A model generated the notes under the pieces. That model saw only the letters and a list, made by a program, of their open reading frames with translations. It searched no databases and was not told the DNA's origin. Below are positions 2,537 to 46,119 of a stretch of 64,000 nt of DNA, in pieces. How positions within the stretch are numbered: the first letter of the stretch is position 1; the number at the start of each line of letters is the position of its first letter. The translations under genes and the position numbers were made by a program. Source of the DNA: Hysterangium stoloniferum (lineage: Eukaryota; Basidiomycota; Agaricomycetes; Hysterangiales; Hysterangiaceae); NCBI GenBank assembly GCA_015178975.1, contig WHVD01000084.1, forward strand, positions 62,001 through 126,000. Reading direction: 5' to 3'.

Positions 2537-5500
2537 ATGCCTCTGAGGACAAAAGGTACCAAGCCAAGTGGCGAAGCAGAATCTTCCACTCTCAAGTCTC
2601 CATTCCTGTATACAGCCTGAGCTACTCTGAAAACCCCACAACCAGAAACCTCCAAAGAATCCCACTTTGTGGAAATTACCGGCAATGCTGAAGAAGTTAC
2701 TGAAGCCACTGAACCCAAAGCACCTGAAGAAGTTATGTAACAATCAATCAGCTCCAGGACCTGAACCCGAGGATAGCAACCAGTCCTTACCTCAGGCTAG
2801 TGATCCTAAGAAGTCCGTGAAACAAAAACCAGATTTCAATCCCGACAAGACATGGGAATTATTCTCTAATGATTTCCTTAAGAACAATACCAAGGAAAAA
2901 GAACCTGGGCAAACCCAAGTCAACAAACCCGAACCATTTACCAGCTCAAACCCGAAGAAGTTACTGACATTTCTTATTTAATGTCAATTCAACTTTTGGG
3001 ACCAACTGGCTGCTTTCGCAATGGATGACCAAAAGGTAAACTTTGCACTCTCTTACCACAAGAATTCCACAGCAGCCTGCTTTGAACCTGCATTCTCTGG
3101 CCTCACTTCTGAAGATCCCAATTGGCTTCACGATTGGGATGCCTTGTTGAGGAACTTGAAACAAACTTTGGCCCCTACGAACAAACTGGTGATGCTGAAA
3201 CCGTGCTTTCTAATCTCAAAATGAAAGACACCCAACACATCACCAACTACATCGTCCAGTTCAACAACCTCGCCACATGTTGTGACTGGGGTGATTCGGC
3301 CCTCCATTACCAGTTTTACTCTGGCCTCCCATCTCACCTCAAAGATGAAGTTTCCAAAGGAGAGAATGGCAAACTGAAGACTCTCCCCCTCATGTGTCTA
3401 AAGGCCCAAAATGTGGATGCCTGATACTGGGGATGATGCTCGGAAATCAGTTGTGAAAACCCATCAGACAAAAAATCATCAGACAACAAGAATGCCAACA
3501 AGTCTGGTAATCAAAATACCAACAATAGTAGCAACTCGAACTCCAATAAAAAGTCCGACAACAAGGGTTCTAATGACAAAAAAGGCAAGGGCAAACTGTT
3601 GAATAAGTCTCAAGACAAAGACAAACCTGACCTAACTGGCAAACTCAACTCTGACAGCAAGCTCCTACCACAAGAAAAGCAATGCCAAATGGACAACAAT
3701 CTTTGTTTGTTGTGTGCAGATCCCAGACACCGAATCGCTGCATGACCAAAGGCCACAAAAGCCCGATCGGCCAATATGGCCACGACTTCACAATTGGCTA
3801 AGCTGGCTGCCGAGTCAAAAAAGGATTAAGCAACTCTCTGGATTCCATGCAGTTAGAGAGTTGCATTGAATCTCCCCGCACACCAGAAAATTGTCATCTT
3901 AATGCATCTGCCCTGTATGATCCAAATTCTTTGTTCATAAATCTTACTTTGGAACCCCTTGGGAGCCTTATTTTTCAATCTCTCGTAGATTCAGGTTCAA
4001 CCCATTGTTTTATAGATATAAATTTTTCCCAAAACAAAATCAGTTAAAAACCTATGCAATAGATCCAATTCCACTCCGACTCTTTGATGGTACCTCAAAC
4101 TCCATAATCTCACAAGCCTGTGAACTCTGACTTCAGTTCCTGTGTGGAACCTTTCAGACAGTTACGTTTTTTGTAAGACAGTTGGACTCGAGCTGCTCCA
4201 TGGTTCTAGGATATAACTGGCTCACCCACTACAATCCATTGATTGATTGGGTATTGGGCAGTATCCATTTCTGAACCCTATCAGCACCCAATACGACTTC
4301 CACCTGTTTCAGCAAATATGGCCTCTACAGCACCTCCAGCCCCTGTGGCAAATCCAAGCTCTCCACCTCCCGTCTCTCTAATAAATGCCGCAGCTTGTAT
4401 GAGAGCCATCAAGTTGGAAGGCTCCCGAGAATTTACAGTCAACCTTAAAGTTGATGAAGCCACCAGTCACTTCGCATCCCTGGTGGCCAAACTGATTGCA
4501 GATTTGGAAGGTGTTCCAGAAAAATACCACCAATTTGCAGACGTCTTCAGTAAACAAAAAGCTGATCGACTTGCCCCTCACAGGCCCTATGATTTGAAAA
4601 TTGATATTGAAGAAGGTTTACATCCACCCTTAGGCCTGGTTTATCCTCTCTTGCAGTCTGAATTATCGGCTATCCGAGATTTCTTGGACAAACACTTAGC
4701 CATAGGTTTTATCTGACCCTCAAAGTCTCCCCTGTCCTATTTGTTCAGGAAAAAGATGGTTCCCTTTGGCTTTGCATTGACTTTTGAGGACTAAATGTGA
4801 TCACTTGAAAAGATAAGTACCTGTTACCACTAATCTCTGATTTACTTGATGCCTCTCAGATCTATACAAAGATAGATCTCAAATATGCCTATCATTTGGT
4901 TCAGATTGCCAAAGGTGACAAATGGAAAATGGCTTTTCACACTCACTATGGCTCCTTCGAATTGTTAGTGATGCCGTTTGGCCTCACCAATGCTCCATCG
5001 GTCTTTCAATGTTTTATCAATGACATCTTTTCTGACCTCCTTGATGTTTTTGTCATTGTGTACTTAGATGACATCCTCATATTCTCTGAAGATCCTACAC
5101 TTCATGATGAACATGTCCGTGAAGTTCTCCAAAGTCTCCGAAAACATGGTCTTTTTGCAAATGGTAAAAAATGTTCATTTGATGTCGACACAGTTGAATA
5201 TTTAGGTTTCATGATGGGACCTGACAGTCTCCGCATGGACGACTCTAAAATTCAAGTTATTCAAGATTGGCTGGAACCCTGAAAGGTTAAGGACATTCAG
5301 TCCTTTTTAAGCTTCGCCAATTTTTATCATCGTTTCATTCATAACTACTCAAAAATTACTGTTCTGCTCACTTGGCTTACTTGTAAAGACACCCCATGGA
5401 ATTTCTCTGAAGAATGCCAAATGGCATTCTGAGAATTGAAAAGTGCATTTACATCTGCCCCTATTTTGTTGCACTGGAAGCCTGATGTTCAACTCATTGT

Positions 5501-11665: not shown

Positions 11666-11896
11666 CTGTGCTATTTAATATATAGTTCTCATCGCTGAAC
11701 TCAACCACTAGATAGAGCCACACCCATGTCACCGTCATCACCTTCAGAGTCCCCTCTATCCCCCTATTAATGTCAAAGCTCTCATAATCACAGTGGTATG
11801 CACTCCCGACGCTGATTTACACAACAGCGGTTCACAGGGTGCATTTATTAGGATGAAAAAGGAGAGATGGATTCAAGGCACTGGTGTTGGATCAAC

Positions 11897-12140
11897 TGTT
11901 AAAAAACATGAGTAATGTAGAAAATGAATAGCCAGACTGGGGATTGAACCCAGGATCTCTCGATTACATAACGAAGGTGTTAACCACTACACCATCTGAC
12001 CTTGGGTAGGTTTGGTCTTACACTGTACTTAAGGATATAACCCTAAGCGCCATTCCTATTAGACCATATACACACTGAACTCAGAGCTGTACACCATATG
12101 GTCCCAGTTGGAACAATGGTTGGCATTATATAATCTAACA
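11897..12140 (-). repeat. 3' LTR of the miniature retrotransposon
   Basis: It is 244 bp and is preceded on the minus strand by the purine tract at 12141-12150. The target duplication TCAAC lies directly outside it. Confidence 0.85.
11930..12001 (-). pseudogene. tRNA-Thr(UGU)-like module inside the 3' LTR
   Basis: The 72 nt fold as a tRNA: acceptor stem GGTCAGA/TCTGGCT (with wobbles), D arm GTGT...ACAC, anticodon arm CTTCGT-TATGTAA-TCGAG and T arm CTGGG-TTCAATC-CCCAG. The A box (TGGTGTAGTGG) and B box (GGTTCAATCC, with CA where CG is normal) fit RNA polymerase III promoters. Position 33 is A instead of U and pair 31-39 is T-T, so it is not a working tRNA gene. Anticodon assignment is by alignment to eukaryotic tRNA-Thr. 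Confidence 0.65.
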
Positions 12141-12293
12141 CACCCCCTTAATGCCAGCATTGTTCATTCTACACTCCAGGTTCGATCTTGGGTATTAACT
12201 ATATCATATGCCAGTATAGGTCCTCTCTGGCTCTTTTTCGTCCAGACTTGTCCACTATACCAAACACACAAATACAGCCAAACCAAGTTAACC

Positions 12294-12308
12294 TTGGAGT
12301 TGCTACCA
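12294..12308 (-). other. Primer-binding-site-like sequence
   Basis: TGGTAGCAACTCC directly follows the minus-strand 5' LTR. The TGGTAGC start resembles initiator-tRNA-Met primed elements. Its complement would be a tRNA 3' end reading ...GCTACCA. Confidence 0.6.
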
Positions 12309-12551
12309 TGTTAGAAAACATGAGTAATGTAGAAAATGAATAGCCAGACTGGGATTGAACCCAGGATCTCTCGATTACATAACGAAGGTGTTAACCACTA
12401 CACCATCTGACCTTGGGTAGGTTTGGTCTTACACTGTACTTAAGGATATAACCCTAAGCGCCATTCCTATTAGATCATATACACACTGAACTCAGAGCTG
12501 TACACCATATGGTCCCAGTTGGAACAATGGTTGGTATTATATAATCTAACA
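12309..12551 (-). repeat. 5' LTR of the miniature retrotransposon
   Basis: It is 243 bp and ends TG...CA in both orientations. It differs from the partner LTR by a handful of substitutions and one missing G in the tRNA-like T arm, which implies a fairly recent insertion. Confidence 0.85.
12342..12412 (-). pseudogene. tRNA-Thr(UGU)-like module inside the 5' LTR
   Basis: Second copy, 71 nt, identical to the 11930-12001 copy except for one G missing in the T stem. It lies at the same place within the LTR, so it is part of the LTR rather than a chance insertion. Confidence 0.65.
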
Positions 12552-12556
12552 TCAAC

Positions 12557-36153: not shown

Positions 36154-36515
36154 AAAGTTGTACGGTGGGTGGTGGGCGTTTTTAGGCGCCGCAGGCCCTG
36201 TTCGTGAGGGCGCGGAGCGCCCGAACCTGGAGGTGTGGGAGAGTGTGACTAATATTGACGCCCAAAGCTCCTTATTACTCAGCGCGGGAGCAAATGCGGA
36301 GGCTTTTTGCCATTCGCGGAAGCATTTCTGCGCTCGCGGGAGTATTTTTAGTGCCGCGGGAGTATTTGTGACTAACGCGGAAGTATTTATGCAAGCGCGA
36401 GAGTATTTTGTCACGTGCGCGGAGGTATTTTATGACGCGCGGAGGTATTTTTACATGCGCGGGAGTATTATATCAGGTGCGCGGAGGTATTTTGCAATGC
36501 CGCGGCAGTATTGTT
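36154..36515 (+). repeat. Hairpin-rich element, CpG-rich copy
   Basis: Same layout as 35638-36150 but with intact stems such as GAGGGCGCGGAGCGCCC and units GCGCGGGAGTATT. Differences from the first copy are mostly CG to TG or CA. Confidence 0.65.
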
Positions 36516-36524
36516 ATACTGCAT

Positions 36525-36722
36525 CCACCGTGCACCCATCCGCCCGCACCCATCCACGGCGCACCCATCCACGGCGCACCTGCTCCCATCCACCGTGCAC
36601 CCATCCACCCGCTCCCATCCACGGCGCACCCATCCGCCCGCACCCATCCAAGGCGCACCCACTCCCATTCACGGCGCACCCACTCCCATTCACGGCGCGC
36701 CCTCTCCCATTCACGGCGTGCC
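36525..36722 (+). repeat. GC-rich 12-bp-class minisatellite
   Basis: Units of the type CGCACCCATCCA/CCCGCACCCATC recur with variants, then CACTCCCATTCACGG, leading into the intron-like array. A second block of the same type is at 40575-40918. Confidence 0.8.
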
Positions 36723-38420
36723 TCTCTCTTTCCTCCAGGTGATGTGTGTACTCTTTCCTTCTCCCTCCGTCCTGCGCTAATCCGCCTCCTCTCTCTTTCC
36801 TCCAGCGAGTGTGTGTACTGTTTCTTTCTCTCTCCGTCCTCCTCTGATTGACCTCTTCTCTCTTTTGTCCAGCTGGTGCGTGTACCATTTCCTCTCTCTT
36901 TGTCCTCTGATCATCCTCCTCTCTTTCCTCCAGGTGTGTGTACCATTTCCTTCTCTCTCCATCCTCCTCTCATTGGGACCCTCTCTTTCCTCCAGCCGGT
37001 GTGTCTACCATTTCCTTCTTCCTCTGTCCTGCGCTGATTTGCCTCCTCTCTCTTTCCTCCAGCCGGTGCGCGTTCCATTTCCCTCTCTCTCTGTCCTCTT
37101 CTGATTGGCCCCCTCTCTTTCTCCAGCCGGTGTGCATTCCCTTTCCCCTCTCTCTTTGTCCTCCTCTGATTGTCCCCCTTTCCCTCTTTCTCTGTCCTCT
37201 TCTGATTGGCCCCTCTCTTTCCTCCAGCCGGTGCGCATTCCCTTTCCCCTCTCTTTGTCCTCCTCTGATTGTCCCCCTCTCTTTCCTACAGCCGGTGCGT
37301 CTACCATTTCCTTCTTCCTCTGTCCTGTGCTGATTTACCTCCCCTCTCTTTCCTCCAGCCGGTGTGTACTGTTTCTTTCTCCCTTTGTCCTCCAGCCGGT
37401 GGGTGTACCGTTTCTTTCTCCCTTTGTCCTCCTCTGATCGGCCTCCTCTCTCTTTCCTCCAGGAGGTGTGTGTACCATTTCCTTCTCTCTTCATCCTCCT
37501 CTAATTGGCCTCCTCTCTCTTTCCTCCAGCCTCTGCGTGTACCGTTTCCTTCTCCCTTTGTCCTCTCTCTTTCCTCCAGGAGGTGTGTGTACCGTTTCCT
37601 TCTCTCTTCGTCCTCTGATCGGCCTCCTCTCTCTTTCCTCCAGCCTCTGCGTGTACCGTTTCCTTCTCCCTTTGTCCTCTCTCTTTCCTCCAGGAGGTGT
37701 GTGTACCGTTTCCTTCTCTCTTCGTCCTCTGATCGGCCTCCTCTCTCTTTCCTCCAGCCTCTGCGTGTACCGTTTCCTTCTCCCTTCGTCCTCTCTCTTT
37801 CCTCCAGGAGGTGTGTGTACCGTTTCCTTCTCTCTTCGTCCTCTGATCGGCCTCCTCTCTCTTTCCTCCAGCCTCTGTGTGTACCGTTTCCTTCTCCCTT
37901 CGTCCTCTCTCTTTCCTCCAGGAGGTGTGTGTACCGTTTCCTTCTCTCTTCATTCTCTGATCGGCCTCCTCTCTCTTTCCTCCAGCCACTGCCTGTACCG
38001 TTTCCTTCTCCCTTCGTCCTCTCTCTTTTCTCCAGGAGGTCCATGTCCCCTTTCCTCCTCTCTCCTTCCCCCAGCGAGTGCGTGTACTATTTCATTCTCT
38101 CTCCATCCTGCTCTGATCTGCCCTTTCTCTTCCCTCCAGGTGGTTTGTGTACCCTTTCCTTCTCTCTTCATCCTGCCCTCATTGGCCTCCATTCTCTTTC
38201 CTCCAGCCAGTGCGTGTTCCTCTGATTGGCCTACTCTCTCTTTCCTAAAGTATGTCTACCATTTCCTTCTTCCACCATCCTCCTCTGACCAGCCCTCTCT
38301 TTCCTCCAGGTGGTGTGTGTACTCTTTCTTCAGTGAGTGTGTGTACTGTTTCCTTCTCTCTTTGTCCAGCTGCTGTGTGTACTGTTTCCTTCTTCCTCCG
38401 TCCCCATCTGATTGGCCTCA
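36723..38420 (+). repeat. Tandem array of about 25 intron-like units (array 1)
   Basis: A typical unit is about 61-66 bp: GTGTGTGTACC (or GTGCGCGTTCC), GTTTCCTTCTCTCTTCGTCC, a branch-like CTGATCGG, then CTCTCTCTTTCCTCCAG. Units are separated by 2-6 bases such as GAG, CCG or CGA. The middle part (37462-38040) is a homogeneous 114-bp dimeric repeat. Long open frames on both strands (for example 37269-38225 plus and 37301-38044 minus) result from the unit length and are not taken as genes. Confidence 0.85.
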
Positions 38421-38570
38421 ATAAAATCAGAATAATTCAAATAAAATAAAATAAGTGAATATAAAATGTTTTAAAATAAAATAAATTGAAATGAAAAACA
38501 ATAAAATAAAATAAAATTCAATAAATCAAAATAAAATGCTAAATCAAAATAAATAAATTGAGTGACCACA
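38420..38570 (+). repeat. ATAAAAT-rich tail of array 1
   Basis: Irregular AATAAAATAAAAT repeats. An equivalent tail (42346-42500) follows array 2. Confidence 0.75.
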
Positions 38571-38723
38571 GTAATTACTTGCAGTTGAGAGTCAATTTAA
38601 CCACTCTTTCCATTTGTAACCATTGTTTCCATTTGTAACCTGTGTCTCCTTTTGTAACCGTTGTGTCCTTTTGTGGCTGTGGCTTCCATTTGTGACTGAT
38701 GTTTGCTTTTCTATTGTTTTCCA

Positions 38724-38985
38724 TTTTTGGAACACTTTCCGTTCTTGGAACACTTTCCATTCTTAGAACACTTTCCACTCTTAGAACACTTTCCGTTCTT
38801 AGAACACTTTCCGTTCTTAGAACACTTTCCGTTCTTAGAACACTTTCCGTTCTTAGAACACTTTCCGTTCTTAGAACACTTTCCGTTCTTAGAACACTTT
38901 CCGTTCTTAGAACACTTTCCGTTCTTAGAACACTTTCCGTTCTTAGAACACTTTCCGTTCTTAGAACACTTTCCATTCTTTAAAT
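38724..38985 (+). repeat. 18-bp minisatellite 1
   Basis: About 14-15 copies of ACTTTCCGTTCTTAGAAC, homogeneous in the middle and degenerate at the left edge. Each unit contains the palindrome GTTCTTAGAAC. Confidence 0.92.
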
Positions 38986-39029
38986 GGCTTTAGTTCTAAA
39001 ATAGCAAAGCCCCAGATATACTTAGAAGT

Positions 39030-39345
39030 TATGTAATGGTTGTTCCCTTTTGTAACGGTTGATTCCTTTGTAACGGTTGATTCCTTTGTAACCGTTGATT
39101 TCTTTGTAACCGTTGATTTCTTTTGTAACCGTTGTAACCATTGATTCCTTTGTAACTGTTGATTCCTTTGTAACTGTTGATTCCTTTGTAACCGTTGATT
39201 CCTTTGTAACCGTTGATTCCTTTGTAACCTTTGATTTCTTTTGTAACCTTTGATTTCTTTTGTAACCGTTGATTTCTTTGTAACCTTTGTATCCTTCCTT
39301 TGTAACTACTGTTTTCTATGTTACTGTTGTTTCCTTTATAACACT
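39030..39345 (+). repeat. 18-bp minisatellite 2
   Basis: About 16 imperfect copies of GTAACCGTTGATTCCTTT. Confidence 0.88.
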
Positions 39346-39349
39346 TTCC

Positions 39350-40052
39350 ATTCCCTGAACACTTTCTGTCTAACATGACTTTCCATTCTAATGTGACTTT
39401 CTGTTCTAATGCAACTTTCCTTTCTAATGCGACTTTCCATTCTAACATGACTTTCCATTCTAAATGACTTTCCGTTCTAATGCAACTTTCCTTTCTAAAT
39501 GACTTTCTGTTCTAATGCAACTTTCCTTTCTAAAGTGACTTTCTGCTCTAACACGACTTTCTGTTCTAACATGACTTTCTGTTCTAATGCAACTTTCCTT
39601 TCTAATGCAACTTTCCATTCTAATGTGACTTTCCATTCCAAAGTGACTTTCCATTCTAAAGTGACTTTCCATTCTAAATGACTTTCCATTCTAAAGTGAC
39701 TTTCTGTTCTAATGCAACTTTCCTTTCTAATGCGACTTTCCATTCTAAATGACTTTCCGTTCTAATGCAACTTTCCTTTCTAAAGTGACTTTCCGTTCTA
39801 AAGTGACTTTCCGTTCTAAAGTGACTTTCCGTTCTAAAGTGACTTTCCGTTCTAAAGTGACTTTCCGTTCTAAAGTGACTTTCCGTTCTAAAGTGACTTT
39901 CCGTTCTAAAGTGACTTTCCGTTCTAAAGTGACTTTCCGTTCTAAAGTGACTTTCCGTTCTAAAGTGACTTTCCGTTCTAAAGTGACTTTCCGTTCTAAA
40001 GTGACTTTCCGTTCTAAAGTGACTTTCCGTTCTAAAGTGACTTTCCGTTCTA
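39350..40052 (+). repeat. 18-bp minisatellite 3
   Basis: About 38 copies of GACTTTCCGTTCTAAAGT. The left part (39360-39780) is degenerate with 14-18-bp variants; from about 39785 to 40052 the units are essentially identical. It shares ACTTTCCGTTCT with minisatellite 1. Confidence 0.92.
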
Positions 40053-40092
40053 ACAGCTTCCCTTTTAGAACAATGGGCCTCAGAAATACTTA

Positions 40093-40360
40093 AGAGTCAT
40101 GGATGCGGGGGGGTTTGGGGGGCGAAGCCCCCCAACAAGCCGGAGCCCGCAGCGAAGTTGTGGGGCAGGTCACGAAGTGACCGCCCCGCAGCGTAGCAAG
40201 GGTTCCCAGGCTTGTCATCATATAAGTTAATTCGCGTCGGTGGGTCCATGGGCGTCGTTGCTGAGTCATAAAATAGAAGCACTGCGAGCGAAGCGAGCCT
40301 TAGTTTCCCACGGTCTAATCTGCGAGCGAAGCGAGCCTTAGGGCTTCCCACGGTGTTATG
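40093..40360 (+). repeat. GC-rich multi-hairpin element
   Basis: Stem-loops with GAA loops: TTGGGGGGC-GAA-GCCCCCCAA (40115-40135), and GGTCAC-GAA-GTGACC (40168-40182) nested in GGGGC...GCCCC. Two tandem copies of TGCGAGCGAAGCGAGCCTTA (40283 and 40321) each precede TTCCCACGGT. It includes CTTGTCATCA, as do the other hairpin elements, and stands immediately before array 2. Confidence 0.8.
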
Positions 40361-40377
40361 TCACCCTGTCACTTTGT

Positions 40378-42345
40378 TCAAGATTTCTCAACCGGTGTGT
40401 ACCATTTCTGTCTCTTCGTCCTCCTCTCTCTCTTTTCTCCAGGAGGTGTGTACTTTTTCTTTCTCTCTTCGTCCTCCTCTGATCAACCCTCTCTCTTTCC
40501 TCCATCACTTGCGTGCGTGTCCCGTCTCCTTCTCGCTCTAACCTCCTCTGACCAGCTTCGTTTTTCTTCCTCCAGTGCGTACGTGTGTGCATCCACCGCG
40601 CACCTTTCCACCGCGCACCTGCTGCCATCCACCGCGCACCAACTCCCATCCACGGGCACCCATCCACCGCGCACCCGCTCCCATCCATCGCGCACCATCC
40701 ACCGTGCACCCATCCACCGCGCACCCATCCAGCCGCACCCATCTGCCGCGTACCCATCCACCGCGCACCCATCCACTGGCTCTCATCCACCGCGCACCCA
40801 TCAATCTGCACCCATCGACGACGCACCCATCCATGGTGCACCCATCCAACCGCTCCCATCCACCGCGCACCCATTCACGGTGCACCCATCCAGCCGCTCC
40901 AATTCACGGCGCACCCTCTCTCTTTCCTCCAGGTGATGTGTGTACTCTTTCCTTCTCCCTCCGTCCTGTGCTAATCCGCCTCCTCTCTCTTTCCTCCAGT
41001 GAGTGTTGTGTACCGTTTCCTTCTCTCTCCGTCCTCCTCTGATTTGACCTCTTCTCTCTTTTGTCCAGCCGGTGCGTGTACCATTTCCTCTTTCTTAGTC
41101 CTCTGATCATCCTCCTCTCTTTCCTCCAGGTCGTGTGTGTAGTGTTTCCTTCTCTCTTCGTCCTCCGAGTGTCCTCCTCTCTTTCCTCCAGCCGGTGTGT
41201 GTACCGTTTCCTTCTCTCTCTGTCCTCCTCTAATCAGCCTCCTCACTCTTTCCTCCAGGAGGTGCGTGCACCCTGTCCTTCTCTCTTCTTCCTCCTCTGA
41301 TTGGCCCCCTCTCTTTCCTCCAGCCGGTGTGTGTTCCTTTTCCCCCTCTCTCTGTCCTCCTCTGAATATCCCTCTCTTTCCTCCAGCCGGGGTGCGTTCC
41401 TTTTCCCCCTTTCTCTATCCTCCTGTGATTGGCCACACCCCTTTTTCCTCCAACCGGTACATGTTCTCTTTCCCTCTCTATCCTCTTCTGATCAGCCACC
41501 TCTCTTTCCTCCAGCCGGTGCATGTTCCTTTTCCTTCTCTCTCCGTCCTTCTGTGATTGGCCTCCTCTATCCCCCACCCGGTGAGCCTTCCCTTTCCCTC
41601 TTTCTCTGTCCTCTTCTGATTGGCCCCCTCTCTTTCCACTGACCAGTGCGCATTCCCTTTCCTTCTCTCTCTGTCCTCCTCTAATCAGCCTCCTCACTCT
41701 TTCCTCCAGGAGGTGCGTGCCCCCTTTCCTTCTCTCTTCAGCCTCTTCTGATTGTCTTCCTCTCTTTCCTCCAGGGATGTCTGTGTCCCCTTTCCTTCTC
41801 TCTTTGCCCCCCTCCGTCTTTCCCCCAGATGGTATGTGTCCCCTTTCCTTCTCTCTCCATCCTTCTCTGATTGGCCTCCTCTTTCCCACAGTCGGTGCGC
41901 GTTCCCTTTCCCTCTCTCTCTGTCCTCTTCTGATCGGCCCCCTCTCTTTCCTCTTCTGATCGGCCCCTCTCTTTCCTCAAGCCGGTGCGCATTCCTTTTC
42001 CCCTCCTCTCTTTGTCCTCCTCTGATTGGCCTCCTCTTTCCTCCAGCCGGTGTGTTCCCTTTCCCTCTCTCTGTCCTCTTCTGATCGGCCCCCCTCTCTT
42101 TCCTCCAGCCAGTGCGTGTTCCTTTTCCCCTTCTCTCTGTCCTCCTTTGATCGGCCTCCTCTTTCCTCCAGTTGGTGTGTATATCCTTTCCTGCTCTCTC
42201 CGTCCTTTGCTGATTGAACTGCTCTTTTTCCTCCGGTTGGTGTGTCTCCTTTCCTTCTCTCTCCATCCTGCTCTGATCGGGCTCCTCTTTCCTCCAGGAA
42301 GTGTATGTCCCTTTTCCTTCTCTCTGTCCTGCTCCCACTGCTTTT
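40378..42345 (+). repeat. Tandem array of intron-like units (array 2)
   Basis: Two to three units (40380-40575), then the GC-rich minisatellite (40575-40918), then about 20 units, most ending CTCTCTTTCCTCCAG followed by CCGGTGYGTG. It is more diverged between units than array 1, with several lost acceptor AGs (for example CCTCCAAC at about 41448). Open frames here are repeat artefacts. Confidence 0.85.
40575..40918 (+). repeat. GC-rich 12-bp-class minisatellite, second block
   Basis: About 28 units related to CGCACCCATCCA (CCATCCACCGCG, CACCCATCCAGC). Confidence 0.88.
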
Positions 42346-42500
42346 TTGAACCAAAATAAAATGTTTGACAATAAAATAAAATAGAATAGAATTAACCGAA
42401 ATAAAATACAGTAAATGACAATAAAATGCTTGAAAATAAAAGATAATCGGAAAAATAAAAATAAAAAATTCAAAAATAGAATAAATTAAATCAAAATAAA
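42346..42500 (+). repeat. ATAAAAT-rich tail of array 2
   Basis: AAAATAAAATG-type repeats equivalent to 38420-38570. Confidence 0.75.
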
Positions 42501-44799: not shown

Positions 44800-46119
44800 A
44801 ACCCCAATGGTCACAAGATTCTCAAGGTTTTATCCATCTCAATGGACGTATCTATGTTCCAGATTCCAACAATCTTCAACTCCACGTACTTCAGTACAAA
44901 CACGATCATCCAATCTCCGGACATTATAGTATTAACAATACTCTTGGTCTAATCTGTAGAGAATATACTTGGCCCAACCTCCAAGATTTCATAACCCAGT
45001 TCTGTAAGTCATACACCACCTACTTATGCTCTAAAACCCAGAGACATAAGCCGTACGGCCTTCTCAAGCAACTCCCGATACCGGAAAAACCCTGGAACTC
45101 AATTTCCATGGATTTTATTGAGCAACTTCTGACTTCCGAAAGCTTTACATCCATTCTAGTTGTTGTAGATTGATTCTCAAAACAAGGAACTTTCATACCC
45201 ACTCACAATACAATCACATCCTTACAATTAGTGGAACTTTTCATTATTTACATATTTTCCAAACATGGTATTCCATCTCACAGAACTTCCAATCAAGGCT
45301 CCAAGTTCGTCTCCCATTTCTTCCAGGCCCTCAGAAAAGCTCTTGACATGAAACTACACTTCACCTCGGGATATCATCCGGAAGGTGATGGACAAACAGA
45401 ATGTGTTAATCAAACATTGGAACAATATCTCTGCATCTATTGCAACTATCAACAGGACAATTGGAAATCCCTTCTTCCAATCGCAGAATTCACCTACAAT
45501 AACTCTCTGAATGCGACTACCGGTGTCTCCCCCTTTTTTGCCAACAAGGGCTATAATCTGAATCTCACAGTGCATTCTGAACGAGATTTAATTTGTCTGT
45601 GCTCAAGAATTTATTACTGACCTCGACGAATTATATCAAGAACTTCGGAAAGCTATTTCTTCCACCCAGGAATATTACCAACATTCTGCAGACAAAAACA
45701 GGATCCCACCTCCTGATTTTAAAATGGATGATCAGGTTTTTTTCTTCCATACCACCCGACCTTCTAAAAAACTCACTGAGAAATTCTTAGGCCCTTTCAA
45801 AATTATAGCACAAGCCAGTTCACTCTCATGGACTCTCCAACTTCCCGATAGTATGCGAACAGTCCACTCCATTTTCCACATTTCCATGTTAGAACCTTGT
45901 GTTCTTAACAAAATCCCAGAACATATTCAACCTCCACCCCCTCCAGTCATCATTGACAGAGAACCCGAATTTGAAGTTTCCAAAATTTTCTACCTATCGC
46001 TAATGATGGTTCACACCATTTACAGAAAGAAGTCATCGTCAGGCCATCCGATATATCCGAATGCGTCCTCGAGAGGTCCTTTGAGATCTGGCGGACTAAG
46101 GAATCACCACGGCCAGTGA
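44800..46119 (+). pseudogene. Ty3/Gypsy 3' fragment: integrase and C-terminal region
   Basis: It starts inside pol (QDSQGFIHLNGRIYVPDSN), then the integrase zinc-binding region HKHDHPISGHY...CKSYTTYLC and the core SMDFIEQL, with RTSNQGSKFVSHF at the second catalytic position and NQTLEQYLCIYCNYQQDNWK. One TGA (45171-45173) sits after LVVVD, and a frameshift follows RDL near 45590. After it come FLGPFKIIAQASS, SIFHISMLEPCV and the start of a chromodomain linker (EPEFEVSKI), then the homology stops. In the catalytic triad the second Asp is replaced by Asn. It is a diverged relative of 2537-7165. Confidence 0.88.

Follow-up and report, generated by a model that had tools for sequence, protein, structure and literature searches.

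Family A, as we call it here, is a family of miniature LTR retrotransposons (TRIMs) in Hysterangium stoloniferum whose two LTRs each carry a tRNA-Thr-like module; it is a new family of the Helenus type, a known kind of element in a new fungal order, likened to the published Helenus by description. The window (the whole stretch of 64,000 nucleotides that was analysed, lying in contig C538) holds one copy, a 655-bp TRIM at 11897-12551 with its sense strand on the minus strand, made up in sense order of a 243-bp LTR (12309-12551), a 168-bp core (12141-12308) and a 244-bp LTR (11897-12140). A sequence-only reading of this DNA had described an LTR pair around a 168-bp core, a perfect TCAAC target duplication, and a primer-site start and purine tract on the minus strand, and all of these were recovered: identical 5 bp stand on both sides of the element (the span 11892-12556 of that reading is the element plus both duplications), and the core opens with TGGTAGCAACTCC and closes with AAGGGGGTG, both directly against the LTRs. 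The features of the window copy are as follows.

11892-11896, no strand: target-site duplication TCAAC, right end in sense, identical 5 bp on either side
11897-12140, minus strand: 3' LTR, 244 bp
11921-11924, minus strand: TTTT run behind the tRNA-like module of the 3' LTR, a possible weak Pol III terminator
11929-12001, minus strand: tRNA-like module of the 3' LTR, tRNA-Thr (TGT) by ARAGORN, Rfam RF00005 at 49.0 bits
12141-12149, minus strand: polypurine tract AAGGGGGTG, adjoining the 3' LTR, assigned by position and form
12169-12191, minus strand: 23-nt stretch CCAAGATCGAACCTGGAGTGTAG, with an exact copy in family E (L097)
12193-12281, minus strand: 89-nt imperfect hairpin common to families A, B and C, core positions 28-116
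12296-12308, minus strand: candidate primer-binding site (PBS) TGGTAGCAACTCC, by position and form, its TGG being the complement of CCA
12309-12551, minus strand: 5' LTR, 243 bp
12333-12336, minus strand: TTTT run behind the tRNA-like module of the 5' LTR, likewise a putative terminator
12341-12412, minus strand: tRNA-like module of the 5' LTR, tRNA-Thr (TGT) by ARAGORN with a T arm one base shorter, Rfam 46.7 bits
12552-12556, no strand: target-site duplication TCAAC, left end in sense, identical 5 bp on either side

The tRNA-Thr fold that had been proposed for each LTR is thus borne out by both programs, at scores well over the RF00005 gathering score of 29 bits, and these two were the only matches at gathering score in an Rfam scan of the whole window, which returned neither 5S rRNA nor a ribozyme. 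The module contains a box B, GGTTCAATCC, and a box A, TGGTGTAGTGG, which agree with the usual consensus of each; it ends 32 nt before the 3' end of either LTR, and the TTTT run begins 5 nt past it. No ORF of at least 120 aa overlaps the window element, which at under about 1000 bp, with two LTRs and a short non-coding core, has the makeup of a TRIM. The 23-nt stretch CCAAGATCGAACCTGGAGTGTAG that the window element (12169-12191) has in common with L097 includes CCTGGAGT, which shows partial complementarity to ACTCCAAGG, the PBS region; the stretch may derive from the primer tRNA or serve as a signal that pairs with the PBS. Elsewhere in the window, 36400-42400 is a long run of degenerate repeats in which repetitive ORFs overlap on the two strands (words PPLSFLQP, GWRKERGG), and one repeat ORF (38575-38976) has the six-residue word ESVLRT about ten times. 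The window also contains a tRNA-dihydrouridine synthase frame, 92% identical over 91% of its length to a protein of Hysterangium stoloniferum.

Across the genome (111,116,353 bases in 554 contigs), the LTR proved to be dispersed in the genome search that the sequence-only reading had suggested: all of the best 40 among 421 first-look candidates matched the LTR query when scored, and the pair in the window is therefore not a chance resemblance. With the core as query, the best 40 of 124 candidates gave 41 matches, comprising 18 of 148-168 bases, three fragments from C212 and 20 shorter ones, all inside core positions 27-128. After removal of duplicates, 94 loci and the window yielded 46 distinct elements or pieces of family A, counts that are lower bounds given that only the best-scoring candidates of each search were scored. 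Fourteen are complete two-LTR elements, with a perfect 5-bp duplication in 13; another 25 are complete single LTRs, duplicated in 22, and two of the three exceptions (L050, L075) have core pieces attached; the remaining seven are partial. Copies with differing 5-bp duplications had likewise been named as something to look for, and such dispersed copies dispose of a simple tandem duplication, one of two findings that would have spoken against the element. The other, LTR copies free of the tRNA-like segment, is equally excluded, the segment being present in every one of the 30 loci that were retrieved by a query of the 139 bp of LTR outside it (177 candidates, of which the best 40 were scored and matched and 30 of these fetched).

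Family A is dispersed and recently active, since the LTRs are identical in seven of the 14 complete elements; the pair in the window differs at four alignment columns and the most diverged pair at 15, and the loci were mostly picked by similarity to the window copy, which biases identity upward. ARAGORN assigns 41 of 56 complete LTRs to tRNA-Thr (TGT), finds an odd anticodon loop in 10, calls tRNA-Tyr in two and no tRNA in three. The commonest changes in the module fall at two CG dinucleotides of the anticodon arm and suggest decay of methylated C. The module is no more conserved among copies than the remaining LTR: on average, copies depart from the column majority by 0.9% within the module, 0.8% before it and 1.4% behind it. 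Two insertions have contexts of their own. A complete copy, L072 (C251:11.7 kb), sits at AGGTTAT/GTTATGGGCC, and would be a nested insertion in primer-site-like sequence of Copia or of another Helenus-type family. At C146:597107-600393 (L048 and L075), a family A core with one LTR lies inside antisense Copia RT/RNase H code (by eye), with the 21-mer TCTAACATGGTAGCAACTCCA on either side and the core split by a further insert of about 840 bp beginning TGTTACGACC; the arrangement suggests that a one-LTR circle entered by homologous recombination where the LTR/PBS junction happened to match Copia code.

Four related families, B to E, were seen in the same genome. Family B (L057, L058) has LTRs of about 115-130 bp that are followed by GGTTATGGGCC and carry a tRNA-Ile (TAT)-like module, at 46.6 and 40.4 bits in L058 and under the Rfam cut-off in L057. 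The core of L058 measures 159 nt and its 5' LTR is split by an insert of about 740 bp; that of L057 reaches 593 nt and contains a tandem repeat. When the hairpin, purine tract and LTR of B together served as query, our own tally of 81 listed rows came to 43 matches over at least 176 of the 211 bases and 33 further matches to the LTR alone; because the latter, where the spacing was calculated, are 283-287 bp away from one of the long matches, many B copies are probably elements of roughly 410 bp. Family C is represented by seven diverged copies (L052-L056, L059, L060), all single units, with neither a two-LTR copy nor a PBS seen among them. One unit, L060, runs for about 245 bp from TGTTAGAATTGG to TTTAACA with the duplication TTTAC, and the C unit would be an LTR by its ends, by that duplication and by its likeness to the LTR of D. 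None of the three C loci scanned, out of seven copies, reached the Rfam tRNA cut-off. The LTR ends and module halves of C and D are similar, 82-89% identical where aligned, with a different middle part. Family D (L095, L096 and others) has 251-bp LTRs, a 48.6-bit module and cores of 66-67 bp starting with GGTTATGGGCCCC; 5-bp duplications flank four of its single copies (two in L045, one each in L083 and L070). It also occurs as tandem LTR-core arrays with a period of 317-318 bp, as in L095 (C4:59600-60800), where four LTRs are present, one cut at the end of the stretch, and by spacing at C534:47742-49855 and C60:62975-63421. Family E is represented by 201 bases (L097), in which an LTR end, TTCTTACA, follows a T-arm-like stretch (by eye); its PBS is that of the window element, and the exact 23-mer is common to both. 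A and B share ancestry, as do C and D, and these are not independent cases of recurrence of the module.

Small elements that combine some of these properties are known elsewhere. Retrozymes, non-autonomous plant retrotransposons with hammerhead ribozymes, presumably likewise are small LTR elements that code for no protein and have a functional RNA in their repeats; the window differs in having a tRNA module and no Rfam ribozyme match at gathering score. Short interspersed elements (SINEs) derived from tRNAs have a tRNA-derived internal promoter module, and family A is set apart from them by its two LTRs, PBS, polypurine tract and 5-bp duplications. The sequence-only reading had looked to Cassandra of plants, and had proposed a fungal TRIM with a tRNA in place of 5S rRNA. 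It was correct in kind, and what it did not foresee is that such elements already bear a name: Helenus, defined as TRIMs with tRNA-derived sequence in their LTRs (Kojima, 2024, Biology 13:119, PMC10886601). According to the text of that article, Helenus has 113 families in rust fungi, with further ones in animals, Selaginella and some Agaricomycetes, the fungal ones making 5-bp duplications and having mostly Copia-like primer sites; many families have conserved boxes A and B, some fungal members could encode a tRNA-Thr or -His, and the name TRIMp3 is proposed for Helenus, Ajax and Cassandra together (PMC10886601). A 2026 meeting report also mentions Helenus in connection with retrotransposons. 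The Rfam scan of the window gave no 5S match at gathering score, whereas by Kojima's account Cassandra has a Pol III gene module inside a TRIM LTR, as family A does, but one of 5S rRNA (PMC10886601); Ajax, the nemertean TRIMs of the same group, also makes 5-bp duplications, with a 5S rRNA-derived module and in other hosts (PMC10886601).

With Helenus as described there, family A has in common that each LTR contains tRNA-derived sequence including boxes A and B, a PBS and polypurine tract, and the 5-bp duplications of the fungal members; the wider likeness takes in solo LTRs, the presence of several families in one genome, Copia-type primer sites (here those of families B and D) and tandem arrays (here in family D), the last known in Helenus from one fish family (PMC10886601). 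A possible difference lies in the hairpin shared among families here: the words "hairpin" and "packaging" are absent from the main text of Kojima (2024; PMC10886601), and a literature search for packaging-signal hairpins of TRIMs or other non-autonomous LTR retrotransposons found none. Hysterangium belongs to the Agaricomycetes, Phallomycetidae, Hysterangiales, an order absent from the distribution given in Table 1 of Kojima (2024; PMC10886601).

As to how family A moves, a resident Gypsy or Copia element had been put forward as the mobilising partner, and the evidence favours Copia, with Gypsy the less favoured of the two. The length of the duplication cannot alone decide between them, because duplications of 5 bp are also possible for Gypsy elements of fungi. 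Copia is preferred because two resident Copia elements have the same PBS as families B and D, because open Copia frames are frequent, and because Kojima links fungal Helenus to Copia (PMC10886601). GGTTATGGGCC follows the LTR in B (L057, L058), in D (L095) and in the Copia elements L038 and L083, both of which adjoin copies of A or D and show an LTR end followed by GGTTATGGGCCCC. The frame behind the primer site of L038 encodes Copia gag (PF14223, 4.2e-17), that of L083 is Copia by eye, and downstream of the L038 site, the nearest listed Copia RT on the same strand (C60:39929-40663) belongs to an open frame of 1416 aa. Among the best 150 of 1270 candidates, many RVT_2 matches fall in open frames of 1373-1416 aa. 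By Kojima's account the B/D primer site would fit the anticodon arm of an initiator tRNA (PMC10886601). The primer site of A and E is instead TGGTAGCAACTCC, in which TGG would pair with the CCA end of a tRNA. No Copia element with the PBS of family A was found among the 27 CATGGTAGCAACTCC sites in the genome, 20 of which fall in family A loci and seven elsewhere; the one of these seven that was read, L097, belongs to a TRIM-like family with a T-arm-like piece and looks non-Copia. Copia mobilisation is accordingly supported for the group of families, and for family A itself we infer it from these sequence relationships. Sites of the form AACATGGTAGC[CT]ACTC, considered as primer sites of the partner, are doubted: the stretch in C146 is Copia RT code read backwards (by eye), and for the rest the doubt is extrapolated. 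The window itself has LTR retrotransposon gene remains at 4243-5282 and 45231-46119, with an RVT_1 piece (PF00078, 5.1e-24) and a second piece that is integrase-like by eye and has no Pfam match.

Taken as a whole, a cycle in which Pol III transcribes family A from module to module, and a resident Copia element mobilises the product, seems to us quite probable. Pol III would start at the tRNA-like module of the 5' LTR through boxes A and B, and that module would therefore begin R. The polymerase would read past the weak TTTT behind the 5' module, through the PBS, core and U3, and would terminate in the TTTT run that follows the 3' LTR module; the product would be about 490 nt long and have tRNA-like sequence at its two ends. 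A resident Copia element would supply Gag, RT and integrase to package this RNA, a tRNA would prime at TGGTAGCAACTCC, the second strand would be made from AAGGGGGTG, and insertion would generate the 5-bp duplication; recombination between LTRs would leave solo LTRs. The start and stop points, the Copia partner and the primer tRNA are all putative, and transcription of family A by Pol III is itself predicted from the sequence of the module. On the sense strand of U3, module and core, TTTT is found 0 times in 896 bases, as against 5.1 per kb in the flanks, a count that took in A, D and one copy of C. This avoidance has a P of 0.008 against single-base shuffles and of 0.25, not significant, against dinucleotide-preserving ones, and is therefore no more than suggestive: Pol III transcription from module to module would agree with it.

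The same figures bear on another account, in which family A is an ordinary TRIM transcribed by Pol II and the module a passenger, left by a tRNA gene or SINE that once inserted in an ancestral LTR and with no role today. To the non-significant avoidance of TTTT may be added the 15 of 56 complete LTRs that ARAGORN does not call tRNA-Thr, the conservation of the module at no better than that of its LTR, and the position under the Rfam cut-off of the three scanned C copies (of seven) and of L057 in B. A passenger would not, however, be expected to recur in one position, and a tRNA-like module stands near the LTR end in B and D (by Rfam score), in C (82-89% identity to the D half) and in E (by eye only), although A and B, and C and D, are not independent; Kojima, moreover, describes boxes A and B as conserved in many families (PMC10886601). 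We consider a passenger module distinctly unlikely. Dispersed host tRNA-Thr genes that merely chance to sit in a repeat would explain why Rfam and ARAGORN call the module a tRNA, and would recall the suggestion that some fungal Helenus could encode tRNA-Thr or -His (PMC10886601). Such genes would hardly be found time and again inside an LTR with target duplications, nor would the CG sites of their anticodon arm vary in complete copies or the anticodon loop be odd in 10 of 56, and this explanation is very improbable. Separately, many of the 62 listed Rfam tRNA matches in the genome are near-equal copies, 94-95 bp long, that form clusters on C112 (at about 987-1219 kb), C68 and C526; they may be genes or part of another repeat.

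Apart from the module, families A, B and C have in common the stretch at 12193-12281, which in the window element folds as one long imperfect hairpin (-30 kcal/mol, z -3.92, 0 of 200 shuffles as good; 94 bases folded). The same stretch folds in L058 of B (z -2.85) and in L053 and L060 of C (z -3.25 and -2.36), more weakly in L055 of C (z -1.15, 27 of 200 shuffles as good), while the corresponding stretch of D shows no fold (z +0.75). Identity to family A is 83-91%, and a 15-base piece of it occurs at 111 places in the genome against one for the reversed pattern. Among 16 sequences (seven A, two B, seven C), standard pairs fill 98.0% of the 511 cells that the 32 pairs of the structure comprise, a share that falls to 22-50% when the partner is shifted by 1-3 columns. 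With shuffled partners, the percentage paired was reached in 3 of 500 trials and the covariation score in 2 of 500, the number of cells changed on both sides in 32, that of further pair types in 205 and that of pairs changed on both sides (two) in 344; the structure was derived from the alignment on which it was tested, which favours it, and the relatedness of the 16 sequences can inflate the test. The hairpin occupies two kinds of place. In A (positions 28-116 of 168) and B (53-141 of 159 in L058) it is found in the core, flanked by the PBS and the purine tract. In C it is part of the LTR and precedes the module, its first base being base 28 of the unit in six of seven copies and base 27 in one; D lacks it. 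The hairpin begins 27 nt past the LTR end in A and 27 nt past the LTR start in most C copies, an equality that may be chance.

Since the hairpin would fall inside the module-to-module RNA at every one of these places, its position may change while its fold is kept, and it might be a portable cis-acting RNA signal by which the Copia helper recognises Pol III-type TRIMs for packaging, dimerisation or reverse transcription. On the sequence comparisons available we hold this to be rather doubtful; family D, otherwise C-like, would have replaced the hairpin with another signal at the same place in U3. Common ancestry without present use is likelier than a signal with a kept fold: that the hairpin is inherited, or is a SINE- or MITE-like insert, and came to occupy both core and LTR through recombination between families, is an account to which we give somewhat better than even credence. 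Family D has many copies with no hairpin, both Copia leaders examined lack it, and its place in the core is much the same in A and B, as plain descent would give; further, the controls on 16 related sequences are weak where they concern the two double-change pairs (344 of 500) and further pair types (205 of 500). What sits less comfortably with ancestry alone is that 83-91% identity and 98.0% of paired cells persist while the flanks have diverged or been replaced, and that so few shuffles (2 and 3 of 500) attain the covariation score and paired cells, values that relatedness can inflate. A search with the hairpin model R1 of the window and 15 of 97 loci returned TRIM copies and pieces only, and no autonomous element with the hairpin.

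These findings extend Helenus-type elements to the Phallomycetidae (Hysterangiales), and describe a genome in which several such families co-exist with many open Copia frames. LTRs of this kind inflate the count of tRNA genes in annotation, as the article of Kojima (2024; PMC10886601) shows for rust fungi. The hairpin shared by families A, B and C is possibly a new point, and if it should be a recognition signal, then the question of how such TRIMs are recognised would become directly testable.
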